From Desulfobacterales bacterium (lineage in GTDB: Bacteria; Desulfobacterota; DSM-4660; Desulfatiglandales; Desulfatiglandaceae), in assembly GCA_027027005.1 (NCBI GenBank), contig JALVMN010000171.1, positions 1-38,095 on the forward strand: a stretch of 38,095 nucleotides of DNA, in the 5' to 3' direction. Within the stretch, counting starts at the first letter, position 1. Each line of letters opens with the position of its first letter. The notes under the pieces were generated by a model that ran no database searches, had not been told where the DNA came from, and worked only from the letters and a program-made list of their open reading frames with translations. A program made the translations under genes and the position numbers. Below are positions 1,613-37,823 of this stretch, in pieces.

Positions 1613-4600
1613 ATGTTCCTCACCCGCTTCGGCATATCCAGGCCTGTGGTGGTAAGGCTTGCCTTGATCCTCATCCTGATCCTGGGGGTCTATTCCTACA
1701 GGGCCATGCCCCGATACCTGGACCCTGATCTCACCATAGGCGAGGCCCTGATAATCACCACCTGCCCCGGGTTCTCACCTGAAGAGGTGGAAAAGCTCAT
1801 AACTAACAAGCTCGAAGACCAACTGGAAGGCATCGGCCAAATCAGGCGCTACGAGTCCATTTCATTTGAGGGCACCTCCAAGATCCATGTCTTCTTCAAC
1901 ACAGGGCTTTCAGAATACGAGATAGACCGGGCCGTTGAAGATGTAAGAAACGCAGTGGACCAGGTGGAAGACCTCCCCCAAGAGGCCAACAAACCCAGGG
2001 TAATAGAGATCGAGATAGCGCTCTTCCCGGTGTGTCTGGTGGGGCTTTCAGGCCAGATCCCCATGATGCAACTCCAAGACATTGCCCAAGACATATCCGA
2101 GGTCTTGGAGAATATCGATGGGGTCTCGGAGGTGCAAATCATGGGGGAGCGGGACAAGGAGGTGTGGATAGAGCTGGACCCCTTGAAGCTCTCTGCCCTC
2201 TCCCTTTCAGTTGCAGATGTGGCAAGGGCTCTATCGGCCAGGGTAAGGAATCTTCCTGGAGGATGGGTTGAATTGGGCCCCCATGACACCTCCATCAGGA
2301 TGCTGGGTGAGCCCAGGCACATAAAGGACCTGAGCCAGATCGTGGTGGCCACAAAGGCAGGGCGGTCAGTGTTCCTGGGGGAGATTTCCACCATCAGGAC
2401 CACCCTTGAAAGGCCCAGGACCCTTACTTACATACACGAGGCCCCCGCCCTGGTGCTGGCGGTAAAGCGCAAGAGAAACACCAACATGATCCGGATAGTG
2501 GAAGAGGTCAAAGAAATCGTAAAAGGCCTCAAATCCCAGTATCCTGGCCTCGAGACCACCATATATTTCAATCAGGCAAGGGAGATCAAACGCCGCATAA
2601 CCGAGCTTCAGACCAATGCCGTCCTGGGAGTGATGGCGGTATTCTTGATCTTGTGGTTGTCCATGGGAATCAGGAACGCGGTATATGCATCCATCGGGAT
2701 CCCTGTGGCCTTCCTTCTCACCTTTATCTTCATGAGGTTCATGGGGCTGTCCATTGACGGGGTAACACTGTTTGCCCTGATCCTGGTCCTTGGCGTGATA
2801 GTGGACGATGCCATCGTGGTCCTTGAAAATATATTCCGCCACCGGGAGGAAGGAAAGTCAGTGACCAAGGCTGCCATTGACGGGTCAAGGGAAGTGGTGG
2901 CCCCTGTGGTGGCATCGGTCACCACCACCATGGCGGCCTTTTTCCCCTTACTTTTCATGGTGGGAGGGGTAATCGGCAGGTTCCTTGCCATTCTACCCAA
3001 GGTGGTAATCGCGGCCCTACTGTCCTCCCTCTTTGAGGTCTTTTATATGCTCCCGTCCCACGTGGTGGAGCTCACCCCCAGAAATGAGAAGGGAAAGAGG
3101 AGAAAGTTTGCCAGACGCCTTGACATCTTCACTCCCCTAAGGAGGATATATTACCCTTTCCTGAGGATGGTGCTGCGGCACAGATACATCTCCGTGGTAC
3201 TTATCATTTTTTCAACTTGCCTTGCCATCTTCCTGTACTTCCAGACCGACTTTGTCATGTTCCCCAAGTCTGATGCCTTTCCAAGATTCAATATCTATTT
3301 CGATTTGCCGGTGGGATCATCCCTTGATCGGACAAGGGATACCCTCATGGAGGTGAGCAAGTTGGTTAGGAAGAAACTGGAAAGGGACTTGGTTGCCCCC
3401 ATTGCCGTAGCAGGCATGAAAGAGGTCAATTACGAGCCTGTCTATGGCCCTCACTACGGCATGCTGAACGTGATACTGAAGCCAAAGGGCCAGAGGAGCG
3501 CCAGCGTAAAGGAGCTGATGGAATCGGTAAGGCCGGATGTCACAAGGCTACTCACTTCCATGGGTGCCACATCGGTTGTGCTGGAAAGGATGCTCGAAGG
3601 CCCCCCTGTGGGAAAAGACGTGGATCTCAAGATACAGGCAGCAGACTGGGACAGTGCGGCCGAGATCTCAAGGCTCATCAGGGCAGAACTTGGCAAGCAT
3701 CCCGGCATTGTGGACATAACTGACAACTACAATCGCGCAAAGCAGTTCCTGGAGGTAACCATAGACGAGGCAAAGGCCAAGCGAATTGGCCTCACCCAGC
3801 AAGATCTCACCATGGCTGTACAGGCCGCATTCCATGGCCTGAAAGTAGCAACCTACAATCAGGGGGAAAAGGCCCAGGAGATAAAACTCATCTATCCCGA
3901 AGAGCACCGAAGCAGGCTTCACGACCTGATGGACCTAAAAGTTGTGGTCCCAGGTGTGGGCCAGGTGCCTCTGAAAGAGGTGGCAGCGGTGAGACTTGTC
4001 CCGGGGTTCCATAACATTTACCACTACAATGGTGCCCAGACCGTTCGATTGACCGCCAACATCTCAGGCCAGGAAGCAAACAAGAAGGGCCTTCAAAGGT
4101 TTCTCTCCCACATAAAGGGTGAGGGCATGACCGCTGTAAAGGCAAACGCCATAGCCAGGGACCTCTTCCAGAAGATCAAGAAAGACTATCCCGGCGCCCG
4201 TTTGATAGCAGGGGGCCTTCAGGACGAGACCAACAAGTCGCTCCAGGACCTGAAAAAGGCCGCCTACCTTGCCCTGTTTCTCATCTTCTTCATCCTGGCC
4301 ATCCAGTTCAACTCATTTACCCAGCCACTCATAATCATGATGACCATCCCCTTTGTCACCCTCGGGGTCATGGTGGGATTGATCGTTAGCCAAAACCCCC
4401 TGACATTTGTGACCCTCATAGGGCTGTTAACCCTTGCAGGCATCGTGGTAAACGACGCCCTTGTACTAATAGACTTCATGAACAGGTTCCGCCATGACCC
4501 GGGCATCTCCTTTTATCAGGCCATTGTGAGGGCCTGCCACATAAGGATGCGGCCCATTTTGCTTACATCCATCACCACCATATTCGGCCTTGCCCCCATG

Positions 4601-4879
4601 GCCTTTGGGCTGGGGGGAAAATCCATCTTCTGGGCACCGCTTGCAACCGCCATCATGTGGGGACTTGGCTTTGCCACCTTCCTGATCCTCACCATGGTCC
4701 CAGCATACTACGCCATCCTGCAAGATCTGTCTTTGCTGCTGAGGGCTAAAAAAAGGCCCCGCCAAGAGGTGCTAAAAGAGATAGACGAGGCCTTTGATTG
4801 GGAAGTGCTAAAGCCCTATTATTCGCTTTCTGTCAAGGCATCAACCCAGCGGCGGGCATTCACCTCTTCTGGAGAGTAG
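1613..4879 (+). CDS. RND-family efflux pump, inner-membrane permease
   Basis: At 1088 residues this is a full-length AcrB-type proton-driven pump. The order is the usual one: an N-terminal membrane helix (about 10-30), a large periplasmic porter/docking region, a membrane block from about 334 to 490, a second helix at about 527, the second periplasmic region, and a final membrane block from about 881 to 1042. The paired aspartates of the proton relay are visible in TM4 as GVIVDDAIVVLEN (D398, D399). This favours the hydrophobe/amphiphile branch, but substrate cannot be read from sequence. It forms an operon with the adaptor. Its last 61 bases overlap the end of the convergent flavoprotein gene, so the extreme C-terminus (after about residue 1068) is probably unconserved. 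Confidence 0.95.
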   Translation: MFLTRFGISRPVVVRLALILILILGVYSYRAMPRYLDPDLTIGEALIITTCPGFSPEEVEKLITNKLEDQLEGIGQIRRYESISFEGTSKIHVFFNTGLSEYEIDRAVEDVRNAVDQVEDLPQEANKPRVIEIEIALFPVCLVGLSGQIPMMQLQDIAQDISEVLENIDGVSEVQIMGERDKEVWIELDPLKLSALSLSVADVARALSARVRNLPGGWVELGPHDTSIRMLGEPRHIKDLSQIVVATKAGRSVFLGEISTIRTTLERPRTLTYIHEAPALVLAVKRKRNTNMIRIVEEVKEIVKGLKSQYPGLETTIYFNQAREIKRRITELQTNAVLGVMAVFLILWLSMGIRNAVYASIGIPVAFLLTFIFMRFMGLSIDGVTLFALILVLGVIVDDAIVVLENIFRHREEGKSVTKAAIDGSREVVAPVVASVTTTMAAFFPLLFMVGGVIGRFLAILPKVVIAALLSSLFEVFYMLPSHVVELTPRNEKGKRRKFARRLDIFTPLRRIYYPFLRMVLRHRYISVVLIIFSTCLAIFLYFQTDFVMFPKSDAFPRFNIYFDLPVGSSLDRTRDTLMEVSKLVRKKLERDLVAPIAVAGMKEVNYEPVYGPHYGMLNVILKPKGQRSASVKELMESVRPDVTRLLTSMGATSVVLERMLEGPPVGKDVDLKIQAADWDSAAEISRLIRAELGKHPGIVDITDNYNRAKQFLEVTIDEAKAKRIGLTQQDLTMAVQAAFHGLKVATYNQGEKAQEIKLIYPEEHRSRLHDLMDLKVVVPGVGQVPLKEVAAVRLVPGFHNIYHYNGAQTVRLTANISGQEANKKGLQRFLSHIKGEGMTAVKANAIARDLFQKIKKDYPGARLIAGGLQDETNKSLQDLKKAAYLALFLIFFILAIQFNSFTQPLIIMMTIPFVTLGVMVGLIVSQNPLTFVTLIGLLTLAGIVVNDALVLIDFMNRFRHDPGISFYQAIVRACHIRMRPILLTSITTIFGLAPMAFGLGGKSIFWAPLATAIMWGLGFATFLILTMVPAYYAILQDLSLLLRAKKRPRQEVLKEIDEAFDWEVLKPYYSLSVKASTQRRAFTSSGE

Positions 4880-6492
4880 TCGGGAAGCAGTATGGGGGCG
4901 ATCTTGGGGTTGTCCACCCCTGCCTCCTCCAGCTCCTTTTCAAAGCGGACCACATGGTCCAGGGTAAGGGGCTTAAATGACACCCCACCTTTTACATATT
5001 GGGCCGCATTGGTGCCGGCCCTCCTGCCAAAGGTAATGATGTCCTGGAGGCTGTTTCCCATGAGGCGGTTTTCTCCATGGATGCCCCCCACCACCTCACC
5101 TGCTGCAAACAGGCCGGCCACAGAGGTCTCGGCCTTTTCATTTATCTTTATCCCGCCGTTTTGGTAGTGGAGGGTGGGATATACCAGCATGGGCTCCTTG
5201 CTGATGTCGATACCGTGGCGCTTGAACTGGATGAATTTGGCTGGCAGTTCTTTCCTGACCGTGCCCTCACCGTGGAGGAGATCGATCATGGGGGAGTCCA
5301 GCCACAACCCAACCCTTCCCGTGGGAGTCATGATGCCCTTGCCCCTTTCCATGGCCTCCCTGATGAGCTCGGCTGATTCCACATCGCGCGGCTCCAATGG
5401 AAAACAGAACTGCTCGCCATCGATGTTTAGGACATGGGCCCCCAGGCCTCTCACCTTTTCGGTTATGAGGAGCCCCACATTCTGCTCAGGATAGACCGCA
5501 CCCGTGGGATGGTATTGCGTGGAGTAAAGGTAGCGGTTGCCCACCCCCACCCGGTAGGCCAGGACCACGCCGTCCATGGTGGCCCCATAGTGGTTTGTGG
5601 TGGCAAATCCCTTTATATGGAGCCTGCCGAACCCTCCTGTGGCAAGCACCACTGCCTTGGCCCTTACCACATAGAATTCTTGGGTTTCCAGGTTGTAGAG
5701 GATCGCACCTGCACACTTTCCATCCTGGTCCAGGAGCAACTCCACTGCGGGCGAGAATTCCATGATGTTGATGCTTTCATGACGATTGCGGGCCTCATCG
5801 CGGAGCACCCGCATTATCTCAGCCCCTGTCATGTCTCCTGCCGAGTGCATACGCTTTCGCGAAGAGCCACCGAAATGGGTGACGAACAGCCTGCCATCAG
5901 GCAGCTTGTTGAACATCATGCCCAGCTCTTCAAGCCATGCTATGGAAAGGGGTGCATCATGGGCCAAGGCAGCCACCAGCTTGGGGTCATTGGTGAAGTG
6001 GCCGCCTCCCACCGTATCCAGGTAATGATAAAAAGGGGAGTCACACTCCTGGGTGGCGGCCTGGATTCCACCCTCGGCCATTACGGTGTTGGAGTCGCCG
6101 TGGCGCAGCTTGGTGGCCATGGTCACCTTCACCCCGTTTTCAGAGGCCATGAGGGCCGCAGAAGTGGCAGCCCCCCCGCCTCCAATGATCAACACATCGG
6201 TGTCATGGTGTATCTGGGACAGGTCCACCTTGTCAGGCCTGATCATTGACCTTGACTCCAGCAGGTCTGCCACCTCTTCCTGGAACAGGTCCCCTTTGTT
6301 GGGGCCCACCCTCACCAGGCGTCTTCCCTCTTTCTGGTAGTCAGGGTGATATTTGCTCAGGACCTTTTCCCGCTCCTCCATGCTCAGGGCAGGATAGTGT
6401 TCATTCCTGCGGGCCATTTCCACCCGAGCGGGTCGAGTGGCCTCCACCCGCTTGATCAGTTCCTTGAGTTCTGGGGTGTATGGCATTTCCAA
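4819..6492 (-). CDS. Fumarate reductase/succinate dehydrogenase-like flavoprotein (TfrA-like)
   Basis: A 557-residue FAD subunit of the fumarate reductase superfamily. After an atypical N-terminal stretch of about 95 residues comes the Rossmann FAD motif GGGGAATSA (104-112). The active-site segments are QYHPTG (326-331), PTLHYQNGG (439-447) and HGENRLMGNSL (472-482). In membrane FrdA/SdhA the FAD is attached to a His in a SHTV-type motif; here the equivalent is SNTVMAEGG with Asn135, so FAD should be bound non-covalently. No membrane-anchor gene (FrdC/D, SdhC/D) is nearby. It is last in the operon hdrC-hdrB-FeS-flavoprotein, like a thiol:fumarate reductase A subunit. Fumarate is the likeliest acceptor, but another enoate or a role inside an Hdr-type complex is possible. 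Confidence 0.88.
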   Translation of the reverse strand: MEMPYTPELKELIKRVEATRPARVEMARRNEHYPALSMEEREKVLSKYHPDYQKEGRRLVRVGPNKGDLFQEEVADLLESRSMIRPDKVDLSQIHHDTDVLIIGGGGAATSAALMASENGVKVTMATKLRHGDSNTVMAEGGIQAATQECDSPFYHYLDTVGGGHFTNDPKLVAALAHDAPLSIAWLEELGMMFNKLPDGRLFVTHFGGSSRKRMHSAGDMTGAEIMRVLRDEARNRHESINIMEFSPAVELLLDQDGKCAGAILYNLETQEFYVVRAKAVVLATGGFGRLHIKGFATTNHYGATMDGVVLAYRVGVGNRYLYSTQYHPTGAVYPEQNVGLLITEKVRGLGAHVLNIDGEQFCFPLEPRDVESAELIREAMERGKGIMTPTGRVGLWLDSPMIDLLHGEGTVRKELPAKFIQFKRHGIDISKEPMLVYPTLHYQNGGIKINEKAETSVAGLFAAGEVVGGIHGENRLMGNSLQDIITFGRRAGTNAAQYVKGGVSFKPLTLDHVVRFEKELEEAGVDNPKIAPILLPDYSPEEVNARRWVDALTESE

Positions 6493-6581
6493 CTCCTTTC
6501 TATCTGGTCCGCTTCAGCCCGTTCCTTCCTTTTCAGGCCGGTCTGTCGGGTCCAAGGGTGTTTTCAAGCTTTGGAACATGA

Positions 6582-7385
6582 TTAAAGATACCTGGTATCC
6601 TTTGGCATCCAGGTCCCTGGAGGGGCCAGGTCTGGTTCTCGCTCCCTCTCGTCGTAGAGGCGTTGCAATTCTTCCTTGCTCATCTTGGTGAGATCTTCCA
6701 GCATCTGGTCGTACTTTCCCTCCGTGATCTCCTGGACCCTCTTTTTCAAGTGCTGGGCCCGAGGCTGAAGATACTTGCCATACAGGCGACGGGCCAACTG
6801 GGCCATGTGATACTGGGGCAGCTCCCCCATGCAGCGGCTGGCACACAGCCCACACTGGATGCAGTCAAAGGAGAGCCTTGCAGCCTTTTCAATGTCACCC
6901 TGCTTGAGTGCGGCGATGTAGTCCATCACCTCGATGTCCATGGGGCATGCCTTTGTGCAGGCATTGCAGGCCACACATCTGAACAGTTCCGGGTAAAGGG
7001 TGTAGATGGAATCCGCAGTGGGCTCGAGCGTTTCAATGTCATAGGCGGCCCTGTTGGCCGGGTAAAAAGGGATCTGGGTGAGATACATGTCTGGTTCCAC
7101 CACCGTCTGGCAGGCCAGCCCAAAGTAGAGTTTGTAGTCGCCCGCCTTTCGGTAAACCGTGGCACAGGCCCCGCATATCCCACCTCTGCACCCAGCCCCC
7201 CGAATATACCTAAAACCCGCATACTCCATAGCCTTCATGATGGTGAGGGTCTCGGGGACCTCGTATCTCTTCCCCATTATATAAATAGGAATGGTCTTTG
7301 CGCCCTCTGGCAGGATGGTCCTGTCGCCTGTGGCCATCTTTTGTGCCTGGGCCTGAGAGGATTGGGTTTTCTCAGCCATGTTCAA
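6582..7385 (-). CDS. Fumarate reductase-type iron-sulfur subunit (SdhB/TfrB N-half-like)
   Basis: A 267-residue electron-transfer subunit. An N-terminal ferredoxin fold carries a 2Fe-2S site (C66, C71, C74 and C92). A C-terminal module carries two four-Cys ferredoxin motifs: C137, C140, C143, C147 and C175, C178, C181, C185. Standard SdhB binds 2Fe-2S, 4Fe-4S and 3Fe-4S; here both C-terminal motifs have four Cys, so two 4Fe-4S clusters are predicted. A charged tail of about 75 residues follows. In methanogen TfrB this module is fused to an HdrB-like domain; here the HdrB part is the separate gene just upstream, 23 bases away. It should connect the flavoprotein with the Hdr subunits. Confidence 0.9.
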   Translation of the reverse strand: MNMAEKTQSSQAQAQKMATGDRTILPEGAKTIPIYIMGKRYEVPETLTIMKAMEYAGFRYIRGAGCRGGICGACATVYRKAGDYKLYFGLACQTVVEPDMYLTQIPFYPANRAAYDIETLEPTADSIYTLYPELFRCVACNACTKACPMDIEVMDYIAALKQGDIEKAARLSFDCIQCGLCASRCMGELPQYHMAQLARRLYGKYLQPRAQHLKKRVQEITEGKYDQMLEDLTKMSKEELQRLYDEREREPDLAPPGTWMPKDTRYL

Positions 7386-7408
7386 CTCTCCTGATCCTGT
7401 TCGCCCCT

Positions 7409-8296
7409 TCAGGGACTGATATATTTTTTGGCCTTGAGGAGCTCCAAGGCGGCCTCATGGTTCAATTCAAAGTGACATATCTCTGGGTCCAATCCCAGGG
7501 AAACGGCCAAAAGCTGGGTAAAATAGAATGTGGGGAGGGATTGGTCCAGCCTTCCATCTTCTGCCAACTGCTCTCCTCCCTGGACAAGATTGAACTCGCA
7601 CAAGGGGCAGCTCAATATCAGGGCATCTGCACCTGCCCGGGAAGCAGACCTCATTATTGCCAGCACCGCCTCCCTTGCCGCTTCAGGGTTCCCCAGGACC
7701 TGGTAAGAACCGCAGCAGCGGTCACTGGCTGGGAATGGGACTGCAGATGCCCCCAAGGCCTCCAGCATCCGGCCCATGAGCTGGAAACTTCCCAGCGGCT
7801 CGATGGCAATCTCCCTGGGTCTTTGTAATGTGCAGCCATAGTAGGGGGCAAGCCTCAGCCCCTCAAGAGGGACCTTGACCTCTTTTCTCAGCCTTTCCCA
7901 GCCCACTTGATCCCGCAAGAAGCTGAGGAGATGTACCACCTCCACCTCCACCTCCCCCTCATAGTCGGGCTCTTCGTCCATGAAGAGATTTATGGTCTTT
8001 CTCTTTTCAGGGTCGTGGCGCATCATGAGATTGGCCCTTGCCAGGGTGTTGTAACACATGGAACAAAGGGTCACCACCGTGTCATGCCCCTGCTCTTTAA
8101 CCCGGATCAGGTCTCTCACAGGGGCCACCTGATGGATGAGGTCGTCTTCTGCCAGGGAATGGACCGCCCCACAGCAATTCCACCTGGGCAACTCCACCAA
8201 CTCCACTCCCAATACCGCCATGGATTCAATGGCTGAGCGATCCAGGTTCTTGGCCTTGCTTTTCAAAGTACAGCCAGGATAATAGCTTACCTTCAT
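7409..8296 (-). CDS. hdrB: Heterodisulfide reductase subunit B-like protein (two CCG domains)
   Basis: A 295-residue HdrB family protein. Two cysteine-rich CCG domains are complete. The first has C9, C41-C42 and C78-x2-C81; the second has C155, C194-C195 and C230-x2-C233. In methanogen HdrB such domains hold the non-cubane 4Fe-4S clusters that cleave a disulfide. It follows hdrC by 9 bases and precedes the iron-sulfur subunit by 23, so the proteins are surely made together. Methanogens use CoM-S-S-CoB; in this background the substrate could be a small-molecule disulfide or a protein disulfide such as a DsrC-type one. That substrate is inference. Confidence 0.92.
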   Translation of the reverse strand: MKVSYYPGCTLKSKAKNLDRSAIESMAVLGVELVELPRWNCCGAVHSLAEDDLIHQVAPVRDLIRVKEQGHDTVVTLCSMCYNTLARANLMMRHDPEKRKTINLFMDEEPDYEGEVEVEVVHLLSFLRDQVGWERLRKEVKVPLEGLRLAPYYGCTLQRPREIAIEPLGSFQLMGRMLEALGASAVPFPASDRCCGSYQVLGNPEAAREAVLAIMRSASRAGADALILSCPLCEFNLVQGGEQLAEDGRLDQSLPTFYFTQLLAVSLGLDPEICHFELNHEAALELLKAKKYISP

Positions 8297-8305
8297 GGTT
8301 ATTCC

Positions 8306-8713
8306 TTAACTGGTAAATTTTCTGAAAGCAGCCACGAGTGCGATCTGTGGACATTCCTTTACGGTTTCAGCCGGAAGTTCAGCTAGTCTTATGAAGTCCT
8401 CATTCTTTCTAAGGGTCATGACTCTTAGGGCCTCCATTATCTTGGGGATGTCAAGGCCCCTTGGGCAGAGCACCTCACATGAGTGGCAAGCAGCACAAAC
8501 CCAGCAGGTGTTTAACCTTTCCATCTCCTCGGCCCTACCCAACTGGGCCAATCGAATGAGTCTGCGGGGTGAGACATCCATCTGCCTGCACATGGGGCAG
8601 GCCCCGGCACATGTGCCACACTGAAAACACATGTGGACCTTCTGCCCGCTGATCTTTTCCAATCTTTCCAGGAATTCCCTGTCAATCTGCTTTGAAGATA
8701 TCTTAACGGTCAC
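8306..8713 (-). CDS. hdrC: Heterodisulfide reductase subunit C-like ferredoxin
   Basis: A 135-residue HdrC-type protein with two 4Fe-4S motifs: CFQCGTCAGACP near the N-terminus and CWVCAACHSCEVLCP in the middle. It should pass electrons to or from the HdrB partner. The start chosen is the GTG at 8713, with GGAGG nine bases upstream. An upstream in-frame start at 8773 is ruled out because a good sigma-70 promoter (8742-8770) lies between the two. This is the first gene of the four-gene redox operon. Confidence 0.88.
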   Translation of the reverse strand: MTVKISSKQIDREFLERLEKISGQKVHMCFQCGTCAGACPMCRQMDVSPRRLIRLAQLGRAEEMERLNTCWVCAACHSCEVLCPRGLDIPKIMEALRVMTLRKNEDFIRLAELPAETVKECPQIALVAAFRKFTS

Positions 8714-8741
8714 GGCCTTATTCCTCCAGACAAGGTAACAG

Positions 8742-8770
8742 CTTATACTAGGCCGAATGCATCTTGTCAA
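8742..8770 (-). promoter_or_regulatory. Sigma-70-type promoter of the hdrC-hdrB-Tfr-like operon
   Basis: Reading the minus strand, a perfect -35 TTGACA (8765-8770) is followed by a 17-base spacer and the -10 TATAAG (8742-8747). Transcription would start at about 8735, leaving a leader of about 22 bases that carries the GGAGG site used by hdrC. It also settles the hdrC start. Confidence 0.7.
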
Positions 8771-8850
8771 CATCCTCCGGGGTGAGCATTCCAGAGGCCA
8801 AGATGCATGAAATTTTCCCTTTAATCTTCAAGCATTAGGGTAACCTATTT

Positions 8851-8867
8851 TTTGCTTGACAAGCAAA
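8851..8867. promoter_or_regulatory. 17-bp palindrome in the divergent intergenic region, possible operator
   Basis: The sequence TTTGCTTGACAAGCAAA has perfect 7-bp arms around a 3-base centre. It lies between the divergent Tfr/Hdr-like and dsr operons and contains the -35 element of the predicted dsr promoter, so a bound dimeric regulator would block or modulate that promoter. The regulator is unknown and none is encoded in the window. Confidence 0.5.
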
Positions 8868-8885
8868 GCTCAGTTTGTCTATAGG
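8856..8885 (+). promoter_or_regulatory. Putative promoter of the rsbRD-like/dsrMKJOP operon
   Basis: A perfect TTGACA (8856-8861) is followed after 18 bases by TATAGG (8880-8885). Transcription would begin near 8892, giving a leader of about 115 bases before the first gene. The -35 lies inside the 17-bp palindrome. Confidence 0.5.
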
Positions 8886-8954
8886 ACTCCATCAATACGA
8901 AGGCAGAAATGCTTTAAGATTTTGAGGTCTTAGCAATTTTTGCGCCTCCAAGGC

Positions 8955-8974
8955 CCCCATTTTTTGGGGTTTTT
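8955..8974 (+). promoter_or_regulatory. Short hairpin with U-run in the dsr leader, possible attenuator
   Basis: CCCCA (8955-8959), a five-T loop, TGGGG (8965-8969) and then TTTTT form a five-pair stem plus U-run, the minimal shape of an intrinsic terminator, 33 bases before the first gene of the dsr operon. The stem is short, so read-through or no function is equally possible. Confidence 0.3.
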
Positions 8975-9007
8975 GGAAAAGAAGCCGGACCCAGGAAAAG
9001 AACCCAT

Positions 9008-9523
9008 ATGGCACTTCAAGACCAAGTCATAAAAGAAAAAAAGAGGATCCTCAAACAGTGGCTTGATGTGCTCCTGGAGAGCTATCCTGAAGACGCCCGG
9101 CGCTTTTTTAAGAAAGAGAGTGACCAGTTTGCAAACCCCGTTGGGGTGACCTTTTCAAGGGAGATGGAGGGGTTGCTGGAAGACCTCATCAAGGGAAACC
9201 TCGGCGAGGACGCCCATAGGTGCCTCGACAGAATCATCCGGATTCGGGCAGTGCAGGATTTTACCCCATCTGAGGCCGTTTCCTTTGTGTTCCAGTTGAA
9301 AGGCATAATACGCCATGTGATGCATAAAGAGCTCTCGGGCGGCTCCTATGGCGAAGAGCTGAGGGCACTGGAAGATAACATTGACCAGGCGGCCCTCCTT
9401 GCCTTTGATATATATGCACAATGCAAGCACAAGATTTATGAGCTCAGGGTTGGGGAGATCAGGAGAGAGGTTTCCGGGCTTTTGAGGCGTGCAAATTTGG
9501 TGAGCGAGATCCCTCAGCAGTGA
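9008..9523 (+). CDS. RsbRD N-terminal domain-like protein, head of dsr operon
   Basis: A 171-residue, all-helical protein with no signal peptide or membrane segment. Its pattern resembles the RsbRD N-terminal (RsbT co-antagonist) sensor domain, standing alone without an STAS domain. Such a gene often precedes dsrM in Desulfobacterota; this is recalled family knowledge, not a search result. AGGAAAAG precedes the ATG. It lies 55 bases upstream of dsrM and is presumably co-transcribed. A role as sensor or accessory factor of the Dsr complex is inference from position only. Confidence 0.75.
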   Translation: MALQDQVIKEKKRILKQWLDVLLESYPEDARRFFKKESDQFANPVGVTFSREMEGLLEDLIKGNLGEDAHRCLDRIIRIRAVQDFTPSEAVSFVFQLKGIIRHVMHKELSGGSYGEELRALEDNIDQAALLAFDIYAQCKHKIYELRVGEIRREVSGLLRRANLVSEIPQQ

Positions 9524-9578
9524 GAAGGACTCCGTGGCCTACAACTTGTACAGCTTTATTGAAGCGAGGTAGAGGTTC

Positions 9579-10661
9579 ATGAATTTTATAATCAGCATCC
9601 TCTTTTCAGGGATTTTGGTCTCGGTCTTGGTGCTCATTCCATGGATCGGGGTGGGTGTCTTTGATCTGCGCTTCCTTTTTGGCGTGGTGGTCCCTTATGC
9701 TGCAATGGCCGTCTTTTTCATAGGCATGGTGGCGAGGGTGATAGGATGGGGGAGGTCCCCTGTGCCCTTCAGGATACCCACCACCGCCGGCCAGCAGTTT
9801 TCACTTCCATGGATAAAGTACAGCAAGATCGACAACCCCAAGAGCAATGCAGGTGTCATCGTGAGGATGATATTTGAGGTGGCTCTTTTCCGGTCCCTTT
9901 TCAGGAATACCCGCCTCGAATACAGGCGCCTTGCAAGTGGCCCCAAGCTGGATTACGAGTGGGAGAAATGGTTGTGGCTGGCCGCCCTGGCCTTCCATTA
10001 TTCCTTCTTGGTCATCTTCTTGCGCCACTTTAGATTTTTTATGGATCCAATTCCAGGCTTTGTTCATCTCCTGGAAAAGCTTGATGGATTTTTGCAGTTG
10101 GGGGTTCTGCCCATCAGCGGGCTCAATGTGCCTTCCGTATTTCTCACAGACATGCTGCTGATGCTGGCCCTAACCTACCTGTTCCTGAGGCGCATATACA
10201 TCCCTCAGACCAGGTATATTTCTTTGCCTGCCGACTTTTTTCCCCTGTTCTTGATACTTGCCTTAGGCCTTACAGGTATTCTCATGAGATATTTCATCAG
10301 AGTGGATATTACCGCGGTAAAGACCCTGGCTCTAGGGCTCTTCAAGTTCAATCCGACGGTACCTGAAGGAATAGGGGTGATATTTTTTATCCATCTTTTC
10401 ATGATAAGTGTCCTGATTGCTTATTTCCCATTCAGTAAGCTGGTGCACATGGCCGGCGTCTTCTTGAGCCCCACAAGGAACCTTGCCAACAACAGCCGGA
10501 TGAAGCGTCACGTGAATCCTTGGGACTATCCGGTGAAGGTACATACTTACGACGAATATGAAGAAGAATTCAGGGAATTGATGATCGAAGCTGGAATCCC
10601 TGTGGAAAAGCAGCCGGAGGAAACCAAAGAAACCGAAGAAGACACAGGAGAAAAGGAGTAG
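9579..10661 (+). CDS. dsrM: DsrM, membrane cytochrome b subunit of the DsrMKJOP complex
   Basis: A 360-residue NarI-like membrane protein. Hydrophobic helices lie at about 5-25, 32-52, 133-150, 183-203, 218-240 and 260-295, with histidines suitable for heme b in the FHYSFLVIFLRH and HLFMISVLI segments. The extra helices before the cytochrome core and the charged, Glu-rich C-terminal tail fit DsrM. With DsrK it forms the HdrED-like module that oxidises menaquinol and sends electrons to the cytoplasmic DsrC trisulfide. dsrK starts 4 bases after its stop. Confidence 0.93.
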   Translation: MNFIISILFSGILVSVLVLIPWIGVGVFDLRFLFGVVVPYAAMAVFFIGMVARVIGWGRSPVPFRIPTTAGQQFSLPWIKYSKIDNPKSNAGVIVRMIFEVALFRSLFRNTRLEYRRLASGPKLDYEWEKWLWLAALAFHYSFLVIFLRHFRFFMDPIPGFVHLLEKLDGFLQLGVLPISGLNVPSVFLTDMLLMLALTYLFLRRIYIPQTRYISLPADFFPLFLILALGLTGILMRYFIRVDITAVKTLALGLFKFNPTVPEGIGVIFFIHLFMISVLIAYFPFSKLVHMAGVFLSPTRNLANNSRMKRHVNPWDYPVKVHTYDEYEEEFRELMIEAGIPVEKQPEETKETEEDTGEKE

Positions 10662-10665
10662 TTCC

Positions 10666-12303
10666 ATGGCTCAGACCCCTAAACCAGAAGAATTGGCTCA
10701 AATTGATCACTCCCCACCCTTGATGGAAGGGTGGATGGATCGCCCGGTAGAGATCCGTGAAGGTATTTATTGTTACGGTGCAAAGGGCAAGAACCTGGAG
10801 GCCGTGGGAATGCCCAACCCCAGGGATTGGAACCCGGCCGAAGAGGACTGGAAACTCCCCGAAGACTGGAAGGACATAGTCCTCGATGGGTTCAAGGACC
10901 GCCTTGAGAGATTCCGCTCTTTCAAGCTGTTCATGGACATATGCGTGAGGTGCGGGGCCTGCGCCGACAAGTGCCATTTCTTCATAGGTTCAGGTGACCC
11001 CAAGAACATGCCGGTCTTGAGAGCAGAGCTTTTTCGTTCGGTTTACCGCAAGAAATTTACCACAGCGGGCAAGCTGTTTGGGAAACTGGCCGGTGCAAGG
11101 GACCTGGACTACGATGTGCTCAAGGAGTGGTGGTATTATCTGTACCAGTGCACCGAGTGCAGGCGCTGTTCGCTATTTTGCCCCTATGGAATTGACACGG
11201 CAGAGATCACCATAATCGGCCGTGAGCTCACCAACCTCTTGGGCCTCAATACTGACTGGATCTCGGCCCCTGTGGCCAACTGCTACCGCACAGGGAATCA
11301 CCTGGGCATCCAGCCCCATGCCTACAAAGACATGATCGACTTCTTTGTGGATGAGATAGAGGAGATTACCGGCATAAGGGTCAATCCTTCCTTGAACCGA
11401 AAAGGGGCTGAGATACTCTTCATCACTCCTTCTGGCGATGTTTTTGCCGACCCCGGCACCTACACTGCCATGGGATACCTGATGCTCTTCCACTACCTGG
11501 AGAGCATGGGCCTTGATATCACATGGAGCACCTATGCCTCTGAGGGTGGCAACTTTGGGTACTTTACCTCCCACGAGATGGCCAAGCGCCTCAATGCCAA
11601 GATGTATGCGGAGGCAAAGCGCCTGGGTGTGAAGTGGATCCTGGGCGGTGAGTGCGGACACATGTGGCGCGTGGTCCACCAGTACATGGACACCTTCAAT
11701 GGCCCTCCAGACTTCCTGGAAGAGCCGGTCTCTCCCATTACAGGCACGAAGTTTGAAAATGCAAAGGCCACTAAGATGGTGCACATTGCAGAATTTACTG
11801 CAGACTTGATCAAACATAACAAACTGAAGTTGGACCCCAGCAGGAACGACAATCTGGTGGTCACATTCCACGACTCTTGTAACACCTCGCGGGGGATGGG
11901 GATCTTTGAAGAACCCCGTTATGTCCTGAAAAGCGTCTGCAATAATTTTTACGAGATGCCCCCCAGCACCATACGCGAGCAGACTTTTTGCTGTGGCAGT
12001 GGCTCAGGGTTAAATGCCGGTGAGAACATGGAGCTGAGGATGAGGGGAGGACTCCCAAGGGCCAATGCCGTAAAACATGTGCATGAAAAGTACGGTGTGA
12101 ACATGCTTGCCTGTATATGCGCCATAGACAGGGCGGTGCTACCCACCCTCATGGACTACTGGGTGCCCGGAGTAGATGTCACAGGGCTCCATGAATTGGT
12201 GGGCAATGCCCTTATCCTTGAAGGTGAAAAAGAGAGGACCACTAATTTGCGTGGTGATCCGCTCCCTGGAATGGAGGAAATGGAGGAAGAAGAGGATGTA
12301 TGA
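10666..12303 (+). CDS. dsrK: DsrK, HdrD-like catalytic iron-sulfur subunit
   Basis: A 545-residue cytoplasmic protein. Two ferredoxin motifs (C93, C96, C99, C103 and C162, C165, C168, C172) precede a long C-terminal CCG-type region with LGGECGHMWR, FHDSCNTSRGMG and TFCCGSGSG. The CCG cysteines should hold the special 4Fe-4S cluster that reduces the DsrC trisulfide, as in methanogen HdrD. AAAGGAG precedes the ATG. The Glu-rich C-terminal tail is coded by the same bases that carry the dsrJ ribosome site, and the two genes overlap by 8 bases. Confidence 0.95.
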   Translation: MAQTPKPEELAQIDHSPPLMEGWMDRPVEIREGIYCYGAKGKNLEAVGMPNPRDWNPAEEDWKLPEDWKDIVLDGFKDRLERFRSFKLFMDICVRCGACADKCHFFIGSGDPKNMPVLRAELFRSVYRKKFTTAGKLFGKLAGARDLDYDVLKEWWYYLYQCTECRRCSLFCPYGIDTAEITIIGRELTNLLGLNTDWISAPVANCYRTGNHLGIQPHAYKDMIDFFVDEIEEITGIRVNPSLNRKGAEILFITPSGDVFADPGTYTAMGYLMLFHYLESMGLDITWSTYASEGGNFGYFTSHEMAKRLNAKMYAEAKRLGVKWILGGECGHMWRVVHQYMDTFNGPPDFLEEPVSPITGTKFENAKATKMVHIAEFTADLIKHNKLKLDPSRNDNLVVTFHDSCNTSRGMGIFEEPRYVLKSVCNNFYEMPPSTIREQTFCCGSGSGLNAGENMELRMRGGLPRANAVKHVHEKYGVNMLACICAIDRAVLPTLMDYWVPGVDVTGLHELVGNALILEGEKERTTNLRGDPLPGMEEMEEEEDV

Positions 12304-12682
12304 TGGAGGCAAGATCATAGCGGGACTGATCATTGGCCTTGGGCTTTTGTTATCCCCCTTTTTTTACAATGCAGGAAAGGCCACCAAACCACCGGAGCCG
12401 CAACTCACCCCAAAGGCCAAGGAGGCCAAGGTGTGTGTGGCTGACACTGATTTCATGATCACAAAGCACATGCAGCTCTTGGACAGGTGGCGTGATGAGG
12501 TGGTTAGGGAGACCAAGAGGTTTTATAAGTCTGCCACGGGCAAGGTCTATTACAAGAGCCTGCAGGTGACCTGCCTTGACTGCCATTCAAACAAATCAAA
12601 GTTCTGCGATGAATGTCACAATTACATGGGTGTCCAACCATTTTGCTGGGAGTGTCACATAGCACCAAAGGAGAATAAGTGA
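12296..12682 (+). CDS. dsrJ: DsrJ, periplasmic triheme cytochrome c
   Basis: A 128-residue protein with an uncleaved-looking N-terminal membrane helix (about 6-24) and three CxxCH heme sites: CLDCH (93-97), CDECH (104-108) and CWECH (117-121). Cys47 (KVCVADTDFM) sits where the Allochromatium DsrJ has the cysteine of its unusual His/Cys-ligated heme. The ATG at 12296 is preferred over frames opening farther upstream because GGAGG precedes it at proper distance and the helix begins there. It probably connects DsrO/P chemistry in the periplasm with the quinone pool. Confidence 0.93.
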   Translation: MYDGGKIIAGLIIGLGLLLSPFFYNAGKATKPPEPQLTPKAKEAKVCVADTDFMITKHMQLLDRWRDEVVRETKRFYKSATGKVYYKSLQVTCLDCHSNKSKFCDECHNYMGVQPFCWECHIAPKENK

Positions 12683-32727: not shown

Positions 32728-32958
32728 TCAGATACCGCAGGTCTTCCGGACCTCATCGTTTTCCATGAGTTCATCCACAGGACCCTGGAAGCAGACCCTT
32801 CCATCGTCAATGATGTAGCCGTAATCGCTCAACTTCAGGGTGAAGGTCACATTCTGCTCTGCAAGGAGCACGGTGAGGCCTGAGGACTTGAGCTTTTGGA
32901 TGGTTTCCCGAAACAGCCTGACCAGGGCCGGGGCAAGTCCCTCAGTGGGTTCGTCGAG
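32728..32958 (-). pseudogene. Truncated LivF-type ABC transporter ATPase (C-terminal remnant)
   Basis: About 76 residues match the C-terminal third of branched-chain amino-acid ABC ATPases (LivF). Walker B and D-loop are seen as LDEPTEGLAP, then LLAEQN with the H-loop region replaced by VTFTL, and a C-terminal GRVCFQGPVDEL. The Walker A, Q-loop and signature segment that should come before are absent; the upstream frame is unrelated and no LivG, LivM or LivH genes follow. It is therefore a decayed fragment and not a gene. Confidence 0.8.
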
Positions 32959-33319
32959 CTCCATCTTTAAAGGTTTGAGGTTTTTCAAGACGGAAAGACC
33001 AAGCCTTGCTCCACAAAATCAACAATTCTTGATGGTGAAACCAAAAAGCGGCCGACAAAGTGCAGTCTAGGCAAATGTAATAGAAATTCCCTAACCATGT
33101 CAACCGCCATATGGCTCACACAAGCCCCCCTTTGATTCCTCGAAAATAGACACCCCCTGTTCACTAAAGTGCACCAGCCTAATACTTCTCTGAGATTCGT
33201 TACAGCAGGGCATGGGCCTAACCACCTAACATTACAGAAGTTATTAAAAAGGCAGTTTTGGAATGCAACTTGCTACTGAAAATAGGCAAGTCAAGGGGAA
33301 CAAGAAGGGGGTGACCCGG
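32959..33319. other. Intergenic region without recognisable gene
   Basis: Apart from the LivF remnant, the stretch from rlmE (32481) to the small exported protein gene (33320) shows no supported gene, tRNA or clear promoter. Stop codons are frequent in all frames at 33071-33262. The decay of LivF suggests old, degenerating DNA. Confidence 0.6.
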
Positions 33320-33718
33320 ATGGCAAAGAAGATCCTGATAGGAGTAATGATGTTTACAGCCTTTGGATTTGTGTCATCCACAGGGGCAGCAGACTTTGCT
33401 GGGCTTCCCACTGCACCGGTTTATCTGGATGCATTTGGCGGGGCACTCGCAGCTGAGGCCTCATGGTCTCCCTGGAAACAAGGGCTGGGAGACGAGCGAG
33501 TATGCTCTTCCTGGAAGATAGTTAACAGCAGCGCAATGGCATCTGCTTGCTGGATGGCTGATGAGGCTGAATTCTTTGGACTTGATTCCAACTGGACTCA
33601 GAAGAGGAGGTATGTAGTTGGTGTCATGTTCACTTTAAGCGGCCTAAAAGGTGCAGCCAAGGCCCTTGGATTCGGGTCCTCTGTCTCCCTGTTCATTGAT
33701 TCCCCTGATTTGCGCTGA
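33320..33718 (+). CDS. Small exported protein of unknown function
   Basis: A 132-residue protein, function not recognised. A signal peptide is clear: MAKK, a hydrophobic stretch (5-18) and a likely cut near STGAAD (residues 20-25). The mature part, about 108 residues, has two Cys (C62 and C77), which may pair in the periplasm, many aromatic residues, and a hydrophobic, Gly-rich C-terminal segment (100-127). The ATG at 33320 has AGGGGGTGA upstream; an earlier ATG at 33263 would put 19 polar residues before the signal. Two hairpins follow, so it seems a single-gene transcript. Confidence 0.65.
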   Translation: MAKKILIGVMMFTAFGFVSSTGAADFAGLPTAPVYLDAFGGALAAEASWSPWKQGLGDERVCSSWKIVNSSAMASACWMADEAEFFGLDSNWTQKRRYVVGVMFTLSGLKGAAKALGFGSSVSLFIDSPDLR

Positions 33719-33791: not shown

Positions 33792-33823
33792 AAAGCAGGA
33801 CCCTCATGAAGGGTCCTGCTTTT
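33792..33823 (+). terminator. Rho-independent terminator
   Basis: AAAGCAGGACCCT (33792-33804) pairs perfectly with AGGGTCCTGCTTT (33810-33822) around a CATGA loop, a 13-pair stem with U-run. The A-run on the left makes it potentially bidirectional. It separates the small exported protein from the MoxR operon. Confidence 0.85.
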
Positions 33824-33913: not shown

Positions 33914-34780
33914 ATGGAGACCGTAATAATAGAAGGGGTTGAGCTGCATCTCTCCCAGCCAGATGAGGTGCCCATGGAGTGGGTGGGCCAGCCCGAATTA
34001 ATTTCCCAGGTGCTTGCAGCATGGTTGCTGGTGGGTGACGATGATGTGCCCCTTAACCCTCGGCTGGTGGGAAAACCCGGGGTGGGAAAGACCACCCTTG
34101 CCTACTATGCTGGGAAGGCCCTGGGAAAGCCGGTTTATCTCTTCCAGGCAACAATGGACACAAGGCCCGAGGACCTGATCGTAACCCCTGTGATCTCTGA
34201 CAATGGAAAGATTAAATACATGGCAAGCTCCATCGTCTCTGCAATGATAAAGGGAGGAGTGGCAGTAATAGACGAGGGGAACAGGATGAGTGAGAAGTCG
34301 TGGGCATCCCTTGCCCCCCTCCTGGACAACCGCAGGTATGTGGAGTCAGTGGTGGCAGGCATCAAGATAAAGGCTCATCCTGAGTTCAGGCTGTGCACCA
34401 CCATGAACGAAGACGCCAGCACCTTTGAACTACCCGAATACATCCACTCCAGGCTACAGCCCCAGATATTTATCGATTTCCCCGAGCGTGACGAAGAGAT
34501 GCTGATCCTGAAGAAAAACCTGCCCTTTGCAGACCAGGAGATCCTGGACTATGTGGTGGAATTCCTCCAAAGTGCCCATGATGCAGATGAGCCCTATTCT
34601 GTGCGCGATGGCATAAATATCGCTCGCTATGCATTGAAGAGGCTCACCATAAACAAAAAGAGCTCAGGAGGAGAGACCTCCATTGTGGAATTGCTCAAAG
34701 AGGCCGCATCCATGATCTTGGACCCCCATGCAGCAGAATATTTCAAGGCCATTGTGGATGACACTGAATACGATGCCTGA
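33914..34780 (+). CDS. MoxR-type AAA+ ATPase
   Basis: A 288-residue AAA+ ATPase of the MoxR/CbbQ/NorQ kind. Walker A is GKPGVGKTT (53-61), Walker B VAVIDE (116-121), sensor 1 Asn165 (CTTMNED) and a sensor-2 Arg near PYSVRDGINIARY. Such ATPases remodel or activate a partner protein, usually with a VWA-domain protein encoded next door. No VWA gene is present here. GGAGGTGA precedes the ATG. The last 8 bases overlap the start of the next gene, so the two products are probably made in step and act together. Confidence 0.88.
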   Translation: METVIIEGVELHLSQPDEVPMEWVGQPELISQVLAAWLLVGDDDVPLNPRLVGKPGVGKTTLAYYAGKALGKPVYLFQATMDTRPEDLIVTPVISDNGKIKYMASSIVSAMIKGGVAVIDEGNRMSEKSWASLAPLLDNRRYVESVVAGIKIKAHPEFRLCTTMNEDASTFELPEYIHSRLQPQIFIDFPERDEEMLILKKNLPFADQEILDYVVEFLQSAHDADEPYSVRDGINIARYALKRLTINKKSSGGETSIVELLKEAASMILDPHAAEYFKAIVDDTEYDA

Positions 34781-36593
34781 GCTTCAGTGGAAAAACATTC
34801 GCCTTTTGCCTATTCTGCACGGCCGCATGGAGTTTGCATCCGAGGTAAGGCGGCAATTCCATGAATTCCAACCGGACTGTGTGGCAGTTGAGTACCCGCC
34901 CACCCTTAAGGAGCAGATCCTCCAGGGGGTCAAGCGGCTCCCCTTGCTTTCTGTGGTCTATTATCAGGAAGGAGAGGAGTTCGTCTACCTCCTGATAGAG
35001 CCCACAGACGGAGAGGTGGAGGCCGTAAGGCTTGCCTTAGAACACGGCATCTCAGTCCATTTTGTTGACAGGCACACCAGGGAATACCCCCTGGACCTCT
35101 CCCCCTACCCTGACCCGTACTCCATAATGAGAATAGGCCATCAACTCTACTGCCAGGCATTTTTGTCCGTGGCCGCAAGGGGCCGCTCTCCTTCCCGCGA
35201 AGATATCCTCAGGGAAAAGACCATGGCCTTCAACCTCCAGAGGCTCAGCAAGGAGGCCGAAAGGGTGCTCTTCGTTGGAGGGCTGTATCACATACCAGGT
35301 ATTCTGGAGATGTTGGACCAACCCCAGACCCGGGTAATCGGACCCACAACAGCCAAAGGCCCTGGCCTGGCCCACCTTCACGAGGATTCCAGCCGTGAGC
35401 TTTTGACAGAGATGCCTTTTTTGGCGGCGTGCTACGAGCGGGCAAGGACTAGCAAAGAAAATCCCAGGCTTGATAGGCTTCTGATTCAAAACCTACTCAT
35501 TAAAGAGGTAAGAGAGCGGCATAAAAAGAAAAACAGGGAAGAGCTTAGGCCTTGGCAATTGAGGGTGCTCAACAGGTTTGCCCGTAATTACGCATTGATC
35601 ACCGGAAGGCTGGTCCCGAATTTTTACCAACTGATCGTGGCTGCCAGAGGGGCTGCAGATGACAACTTTGCCTACGAAGTCTGGGAAAAGGGGAGTGAGT
35701 ATCCCTGGCAGACAGAGCAGCCGGGCCTCCCTGTGCTAAGGCTAAGTGGAGAGGACCTCTTCTTGGATCAAAAGCGGATCCGGTTCCACAGGCGGATCAA
35801 GACATTCAGGAGGCGCCTCCTTTCAGTAAAGGTGAAGAAGAGGCCCACTGCCAAGGACAGGGCCAAATGGAAAAAGGAGTTTGGAGCCTTCAGCATATGC
35901 TCATATCCCCCTGAAGACGTGGTGGTGGAGGGATATGGCCACTATCTCCAGAAAAGGGCCATGGAGATAAAGACTGAAGACAACAGCACCATAGAGCCAT
36001 TTATGACCTCCATGCTGGACGGCATTGACATCCGCCAGACCATAAGGGAGTGGGGCAGTGGCAAGATTTATGTAAAACACAACGCCCCCTTCAGGGGAAA
36101 GGTGGACTCGGTGGTGGTGATATTCGATCCTGATTATCCTGACAAGGAGGGTAATGAAAGGTTCCCCTGGTGTGTCACATGGCTGGGAGAGCATGAACAG
36201 GAATCTGATATGGCCTTTTACAGCACACCTGCAGGTGAGGAGGTGGTTGGACCCGGAATCTCCAGGTGTCAATATGGTGGCTTCATGCTTACCTATCCCC
36301 CGATGCGTGTCTTTGACATATGGAAGGATCCCCTGTTTGACTTTGCCCGCAACAAACCCGAACGCCTGCTTTTGGCAGCCATCGACTATAGCATGGAAAA
36401 CAATATCGTCTATGTGGCCCCCACCCCACCATCTGGTTGGTGCAAGAGCTTTGCTGCTAGACAGGGCAAAAGAATCATCTACATGCCCATTGGCCTCTTT
36501 TCTCCAGTGACCCTTAACAAGATCCGCCAGTTCCACGTGCTTGACGGCCATCACGTGCGCCGCTACGCTCATAACTACATCCAAAAACCATAG
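34773..36593 (+). CDS. TraB/ChaN-like domain fused to an unrecognised C-terminal domain
   Basis: A 606-residue soluble protein with no signal or membrane helix. Residues about 9-182 resemble the TraB/PrgY and EreA/ChaN superfamily: H16-G17 near the start, QPDCVAVEYPP (E40), EKTMAFNLQRL (148-158) and VLFVGGLYHIPGI (165-177, H173). A middle basic helical part (about 240-370) follows. The C-terminal part (about 375-606) has striking conserved-looking stretches such as EDVVVEGYGHYLQKR, VKHNAPFRGKVDSVVVIFDPDYPD and YGGFMLTYPPMR, which match nothing I know. DUF5682 proteins beside MoxR ATPases are a possible relative of the first half. The start at 34773 is chosen for its overlap with the ATPase stop; an in-frame ATG at 34728 lies deeper in that gene. 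No partner VWA gene follows. Confidence 0.65.
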   Translation: MPELQWKNIRLLPILHGRMEFASEVRRQFHEFQPDCVAVEYPPTLKEQILQGVKRLPLLSVVYYQEGEEFVYLLIEPTDGEVEAVRLALEHGISVHFVDRHTREYPLDLSPYPDPYSIMRIGHQLYCQAFLSVAARGRSPSREDILREKTMAFNLQRLSKEAERVLFVGGLYHIPGILEMLDQPQTRVIGPTTAKGPGLAHLHEDSSRELLTEMPFLAACYERARTSKENPRLDRLLIQNLLIKEVRERHKKKNREELRPWQLRVLNRFARNYALITGRLVPNFYQLIVAARGAADDNFAYEVWEKGSEYPWQTEQPGLPVLRLSGEDLFLDQKRIRFHRRIKTFRRRLLSVKVKKRPTAKDRAKWKKEFGAFSICSYPPEDVVVEGYGHYLQKRAMEIKTEDNSTIEPFMTSMLDGIDIRQTIREWGSGKIYVKHNAPFRGKVDSVVVIFDPDYPDKEGNERFPWCVTWLGEHEQESDMAFYSTPAGEEVVGPGISRCQYGGFMLTYPPMRVFDIWKDPLFDFARNKPERLLLAAIDYSMENNIVYVAPTPPSGWCKSFAARQGKRIIYMPIGLFSPVTLNKIRQFHVLDGHHVRRYAHNYIQKP

Positions 36594-37076: not shown

Positions 37077-37823
37077 ATGGCAACATATTGGATTCACCCC
37101 ATTGTCATGGGGACCAAGCTGTTTGATAAGGGGATGATGACATATCAGCATGGGTATGGTTCTCCCTATGCAATACCGATCTATTGCTGGTATCTCGAAG
37201 GGGCAGGCAAAAGGATCCTTGTAGATACGGGCGAGATGAATCCCATTCAATCAGAAGACCGGGAAAATAGGATTGGTGGAAAGATTTATATGTTTGAAGA
37301 GGGGCTTCAGAGATGGGGGCTCACACCACAAGATATCGACATAGTAATCCATACCCATCTCCACAATGATCACTGCGAGAATGATTATAAGTGCTCCAAT
37401 GCCTTGATCTATGCACATGAAAAGGAGGTTCAAAGGATTCATGATCCACATCCACTGGATTTCAGGTACATGGAGGACTACATCGAGGACGTGGAGGAAA
37501 ATGGTCAACTACAGGTACTAAAAGAAGACAAAGAGATAGTGCCCGGCATAAAGATGGTTCACACTCCGGCCCATACAGAAGGAGGAATGTCGGTATTTGT
37601 AGATACCCCTAAGGGGCTCGCAATAATTACAGGATTCTGCGTGGTTAAGGAAAATTTCTTCCCTCCCAAGGAAGTCGTTGCAATGGAGATGGAGGTAATC
37701 CCCCCTGGAACACTGGTAAGCTCATACCAGGCTTATGACATAGTAAAGAAGATAAAGGATACAGCCGATATCCTGATTCCGCTACACGAGCCGGAGTTTT
37801 CATCCATGGACACGGTACCGTAA
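37077..37823 (+). CDS. Metallo-beta-lactamase-fold hydrolase, AHL-lactonase-like
   Basis: A 248-residue MBL-fold enzyme near the N-acyl homoserine lactonase group. The metal motif is HTHLHNDH (92-99, with H94, H96, D98, H99); further ligands are H166 (PAHTEGG) and H237 (PLHEPEF). The bridging Asp that normally follows in TGD is replaced: here ITGFCVV has Phe187 at that position, so a two-metal centre is doubtful. No signal peptide is seen. The ATG at 37077 follows GAGGAGG by nine bases. Lactone, ester or thioester hydrolysis are all possible, and AHL degradation is not proven. Confidence 0.82.
   Translation: MATYWIHPIVMGTKLFDKGMMTYQHGYGSPYAIPIYCWYLEGAGKRILVDTGEMNPIQSEDRENRIGGKIYMFEEGLQRWGLTPQDIDIVIHTHLHNDHCENDYKCSNALIYAHEKEVQRIHDPHPLDFRYMEDYIEDVEENGQLQVLKEDKEIVPGIKMVHTPAHTEGGMSVFVDTPKGLAIITGFCVVKENFFPPKEVVAMEMEVIPPGTLVSSYQAYDIVKKIKDTADILIPLHEPEFSSMDTVP

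Follow-up and report, generated by a model that had tools for sequence, protein, structure and literature searches.

The MoxR clade of ATPases is widespread, and for most of its members the role has no explanation. The locus described here, which encodes one such enzyme directly ahead of a two-domain protein and includes neither a VWA nor a SWIM gene, offers the simplest setting in which to study how an ATPase of this kind acts on a TIKI-fold protein. The locus lies within a window of 38,095 nucleotides (the whole stretch of DNA that was analyzed) from a Desulfobacterales bacterium and, as a first-pass annotation had described, it comprises genes for a 288-residue AAA+ ATPase (P1; 33914–34780, forward strand) and a 606-residue protein (P2; 34773–36593, forward strand), the reading frames of which overlap by 8 bases (34773–34780). 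Both are real genes, because P2 occurs in 75 and P1 in 77 of 99 relatives. An alternative in-frame ATG at 34728 would extend P2 to 621 residues; the start at 34773 is plausible, if unproven, because homologue alignments to P2 begin at about residue 4 of the 606-residue form. The pair had also been placed behind a strong terminator. A hairpin of the intrinsic-terminator type (a stem of 13 bp and a U tract) is indeed present 5′ of the two genes on the forward strand (33792–33822), whereas terminator-like matches across the region number 7 against 4.9 ± 2.2 in shuffled sequence, which is only a slight excess.

Pfam scores, PDB matches and the alignment of its homologues place P1 among the AAA_5, helix-2-insert-clade AAA+ ATPases. 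P1 scores 65.5 bits against AAA_5 (cut-off 22) and 29.1 bits, just over the cut-off of 27, against AAA_3, the MoxR model; with both scores above cut-off and its motifs conserved, it belongs to the MoxR-clade ATPases in the broad sense. Its closest PDB matches are midasin (E 1e-22), NorQ (3e-6), CbbQ (1e-5) and the uncharacterized chain 2r44 (0.004), which we take to be a MoxR-type protein. The earlier label "MoxR-type" is hence correct at the level of the clade and inexact for the protein, which by Pfam and PDB comparison is better described as AAA_5, or midasin/CGN-like, than as MoxR proper. Across 73 P1 homologues from several phyla, mean column identity is 75%, and Walker A (GKPGVGKT), Walker B (VIDEGNR), sensor 1 (TMN), the HSR arginine finger and the RDG sensor-2 region are near-invariant, so P1 is expected to be an active ATPase.

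The first 182 residues of P2 (34773–35318) are best described, from profile comparisons, as a divergent DUF5682/YehM-type domain of the TIKI/TraB/EreA superfamily, which bears out the previous assignment of the first half of P2 to TraB/PrgY-EreA/ChaN-like proteins and makes it more specific. P2 of the window scores 18.7 bits against DUF5682 (PF18934), below the gathering score of 26, and so falls outside the full family; DUF5682 is, however, matched at E ≤ 0.01 by 20 of 76 P2 homologues (best 1e-7), and five P2-type homologues exceed the gathering score over their N-terminal part. Two of the 76 weakly match TraB_PrgY_gumN (PF01963). At the level of profiles, homology extends to Escherichia coli YehM, residues 6–210 of which align with the P2 family over 171 columns (hhalign E 2.3e-5, probability 76%). 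Foldseek searches of the PDB with the full-length P2 model returned weak matches only (best E 5e-3).

Alignment of P2, a divergent P2 copy from genome G212, YehM and the DUF5682 protein of genome G280 identifies H16, E40, D99, R147–E148, G170 and H173 as common to all four. TIKI enzymes possess a 2His/2Glu site and a nearby Arg, and in RRSP the first Glu of this site lies two residues before the first His (PMC6254334). Judged by their order and spacing, H16, E40, R147 and H173 of P2 probably correspond to three of the four site residues and the Arg; the first Glu, which would stand two positions ahead of the first His, is not conserved. P2 thus keeps the His…Glu…Arg-Glu…Gly-x-x-His pattern of the wider TIKI/TraB/PrgY/EreA/ChaN superfamily (PF01963, RRSP, Bcr135) and differs from it in this Glu, in its large fused C-terminal domain and in its ATPase partner. 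Catalysis by P2 is uncertain, since the first Glu of the site is not conserved and PMT, a relative of the TIKI fold, lacks both the 2His/2Glu site and activity (PMC6254334).

A helical linker region (residues 183–357; 35319–35843), predicted by AlphaFold2 with a low-confidence stretch at residues 344–354, joins this domain to a compact predicted alpha/beta domain (the C-domain; residues 358–606, 35844–36590), which is the best-conserved part of the protein (mean column identity of 62% vs. 46% for the whole of P2) and carries the motifs SICSYPPED, DGID.RETIR, FD.D, WLGEHEQESDM, YGGF and PP.R. AlphaFold2 models the isolated C-domain with a pLDDT of 88.8 and a pTM of 0.81 (89.4 and 0.60 for full-length P2). 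Sequence searches with the C-domain gave no match to PDB sequence profiles or Pfam, searches of PDB, Pfam and NCBIfam sequences with P2 and the C-domain gave nothing past DUF5682/TraB, and Foldseek searches of the PDB and BFVD with the C-domain gave nothing below E 0.17 (TM about 0.2). The domain is also unrelated to the C-terminal part of YehM. The first-pass annotation had described the C-terminal region as matching no family, which these searches confirm. The C-domain is hence a well-predicted, highly conserved fold without a detectable solved relative and, as judged from its model against the PDB and BFVD, possibly a new fold. Local Foldseek matches of full-length P2 and the C-domain to Rossmann-like, deaminase and nuclease structures were rejected, as they span only about 40–70 columns. 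Assignment of the C-domain to the PD-(D/E)XK nucleases was likewise dropped, the motif being absent, and the sole short frame retrieved that resembled a stand-alone C-domain is a fragment at a contig edge.

That P1 and P2 function jointly is strongly supported by their distribution. Among 297 genomes from across the phylum, 48 encode the P2 C-domain and all 48 encode P1 (Fisher p about 2e-53, a value that overstates independence because the genomes are related), in support of the tight functional pairing that had been proposed. P1 alone was recorded at first count in two further genomes: in G194 (76% complete) it adjoins a P2 fragment, and in G212 a divergent P1 (36% identity) adjoins a divergent P2 of 782 residues that is homologous over its length (hhalign 99.8%). 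The two genes are same-strand neighbors in 38 of the 48 genomes, lie further apart on one contig in three (by about 2, 8 and 11 kb when the C-domain is taken as the end point) and occupy different contigs in seven; a survey of contigs counted 58 loci at which P1 and P2 are adjacent, 6 at which they are separated and 9 without P1 within the sequence examined. Spacing therefore varies from overlap through hundreds of bases to complete unlinking while co-occurrence stays perfect, and it is co-occurrence, not overlap, that argues for joint function. The inference of matched synthesis from the 8-base overlap is accordingly weak, and the expectation that the genes are neighbors in relatives has a mixed but favorable outcome, as about ten genomes carry them unlinked and none lacks the partner. 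The pair is always together across one phylum, yet it is unnamed and unstudied.

The surroundings of the pair speak against the accessory-like DNA in which it had been thought to stand. G+C is level across the region (0.50–0.54), an rlmE-yebC-ruvCAB neighborhood is found near the pair in the window and at loci L021, L022 and/or L024 of relatives, and the pair counts as core within its family, where it is present in single copy in 27 of 27 genomes that are at least 90% complete. It is core in its order as well, and the suggestion that it forms a small defense or stress module is unsupported for the copy in the window. Searches with P2 of PHROGs, phage records and viral contigs returned nothing, and PADLOC, which gave weak, generic AAA matches for P1 and one 12-bit match for P2, places the pair in no known defense system. 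A plasmid search found one intact pair, on a Neochlamydia plasmid, where RefSeq names the two proteins "AAA family ATPase" and "hypothetical protein". At the window locus, P1–P2 is most likely a real, uncharacterized molecular machine and not a stray defense cassette.

No third gene recurs beside the pair over about 80 loci, and neighbors at other loci are varied (MFS, SNF2, ferrochelatase, aminotransferase, SbcC, PP-loop and transglutaminase genes). The reported lack of a VWA partner was confirmed: a simple MIDAS-motif scan, of a kind that misses degenerate VWA domains, found no VWA gene beside the pair in the window and one at a single surveyed locus, L041, where a VWA-domain gene (2513–3547) lies about 650 bp upstream of P1. 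VWA_CoxE-type genes occur elsewhere in the genome, and a distant VWA partner for P1–P2 is conceivable.

The nearest described arrangement to P1–P2 is the yehL-yehM-yehP-yehQ locus of E. coli, which encodes a MoxR ATPase (YehL), a DUF5682 protein (YehM), a VWA protein (YehP) and a SWIM protein (YehQ); a search of one literature library for DUF5682 or yehLMPQ by name found no paper. In both, an AAA+ gene directly precedes a DUF5682-type, TIKI/TraB-like gene, and the N-terminal ~180 residues of P2 are homologous to YehM. The pair differs in that it has no VWA and SWIM genes and so falls outside the four-gene type, in the unrelated C-domain of P2 and in its ATPase, as P1 shows no similarity to YehL by BLASTP, phmmer or P1 profile and is, in sequence, closer to midasin, NorQ and CbbQ. 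The four-gene layout is itself rare in the phylum: one locus (L145, G280:C27:80000-96000; 5606–12562) carries AAA_5, DUF5682, MIDAS-bearing and SWIM-motif frames, and its DUF5682 protein is the only full-length match to that family among the 297 genomes. Because P1 and YehL are not recognizably sister, the safest reading of the resemblance is a recurrent association of P1's AAA clade with the DUF5682 type of TIKI domain, and the pairing of YehL with YehM would be conserved in P1–P2 by analogy rather than by demonstrated descent. The CGN (CbbQ/GvpN/NorQ) and midasin ATPases of the AAA_5 type, the nearest to P1 in sequence, act with a VWA/MIDAS partner, whereas P1 has none alongside, L041 excepted. 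The pair also recalls the MoxR-vWA ternary conflict systems (Kaur et al. 2020, PMC7159879) in coupling a MoxR-clade ATPase to an effector-like protein; it differs from them in having no vWA, VMAP/iSTAND/FtsH or beta-propeller component, in being core rather than hypervariable and, with no MIDAS-type frame alongside except at L041, it does not belong to the MoxR-VWA systems.

We hypothesize that P1 and P2 constitute an obligate two-protein machine with a core function, a proposal that we judge to have an even chance of being correct because the two co-occur in 48/48 genomes, the ATPase motifs are near-invariant, P2 is homologous to YehM and retains shared TIKI residues, and no third gene recurs. 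P1, a ring-forming AAA+ member of the midasin/CbbQ/NorQ/MoxR (helix-2-insert) clade, would bind P2 and, by hydrolyzing ATP, remodel or activate it; the P2 N-terminus would be a latent TIKI-fold hydrolase of the peptidase or esterase type, and the C-domain would take the place of the VWA adaptor, as an ATPase docking surface, a substrate-recognition module or a second active site. In the window, the pair would then have a core role in the lineage, in housekeeping or under stress, and not act as a mobile defense cassette. Possible, though we are more doubtful of it, is that the two proteins instead act as a maturation chaperone that loads a cofactor into, or assembles, a third, unlinked enzyme, with P2 as a dead-TIKI adaptor replacing VWA. 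NorQ, CbbQ and CoxD serve in cofactor loading or enzyme assembly and activation, and NorQ and CbbQ are the nearest structures to P1 after midasin; the core-like distribution of the pair and the missing TIKI Glu of P2 would suit such a role, but no gene for a client is repeatedly found alongside the pair, and H16, E40, R147/E148 and H173 persist even in the 782-residue divergent P2, which would be unusual for a dead scaffold. That P1 and P2 are independently useful core genes and neighbors merely by history is very improbable: variable spacing and the ten or so genomes with unlinked genes would be expected of such a relationship, whereas loss and gain are perfectly correlated over 297 genomes, including those in which the two are no longer linked.

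A further reading, in which the pair is a conflict module triggered by defense or stress, with the ATPase as switch and P2 as toxic effector, draws mainly on the G212 copy and seems to us improbable for the window. At this locus (L151, G212:C12:52000-66000; 2383–10311) the divergent pair stands in a forward-strand cluster with RyR-domain AAA, ThsB-like TIR and TPR genes, and the cluster is, from its gene content, a candidate TIR-signaling defense locus; recent work shows that the ADPR signals of Thoeris are cleaved or sequestered by RyR domains (PMC13232231). The intact pair on the Neochlamydia plasmid, the absence of G212-type copies from the other 147 close relatives searched (with no second copy found in 395 phylum genomes) and the precedent of the MoxR-vWA conflict systems (PMC7159879) point the same way. 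However, the G212 setting was met only once, and this reading fits that copy alone, and elsewhere the complete and single-copy presence of the pair in its family, its conserved chromosomal context, the absence of convincing PADLOC and phage matches, and neighbors that are metabolic or otherwise unrelated all argue against it. In the boldest reading, P1–P2 would represent a new class of TIKI-fold proteases driven by ATP, in which a new-fold C-domain replaces the VWA adaptor, and its effector machinery would be common to a core housekeeping branch and a sporadic branch linked to TIR/RyR nucleotide signaling; we regard this extension as unlikely, if less so than the conflict module.

Other frames flank the pair in the window. 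Downstream, 37077–37823 encodes a protein of the metallo-beta-lactamase fold that resembles quorum-quenching lactonases (70 bits against an AiiA-type model, far under its cut-off). Upstream, a 151-residue open reading frame (33263–33718) has no family match, and a frame 34% identical to it occupies the same place at L021. A short frame at 32728–32988, which has no Pfam match, looks by eye like the C-terminus of an ABC transporter ATPase for branched-chain amino acids and is possibly a gene remnant; a similar stretch adjoins rlmE at both L021 and L022.
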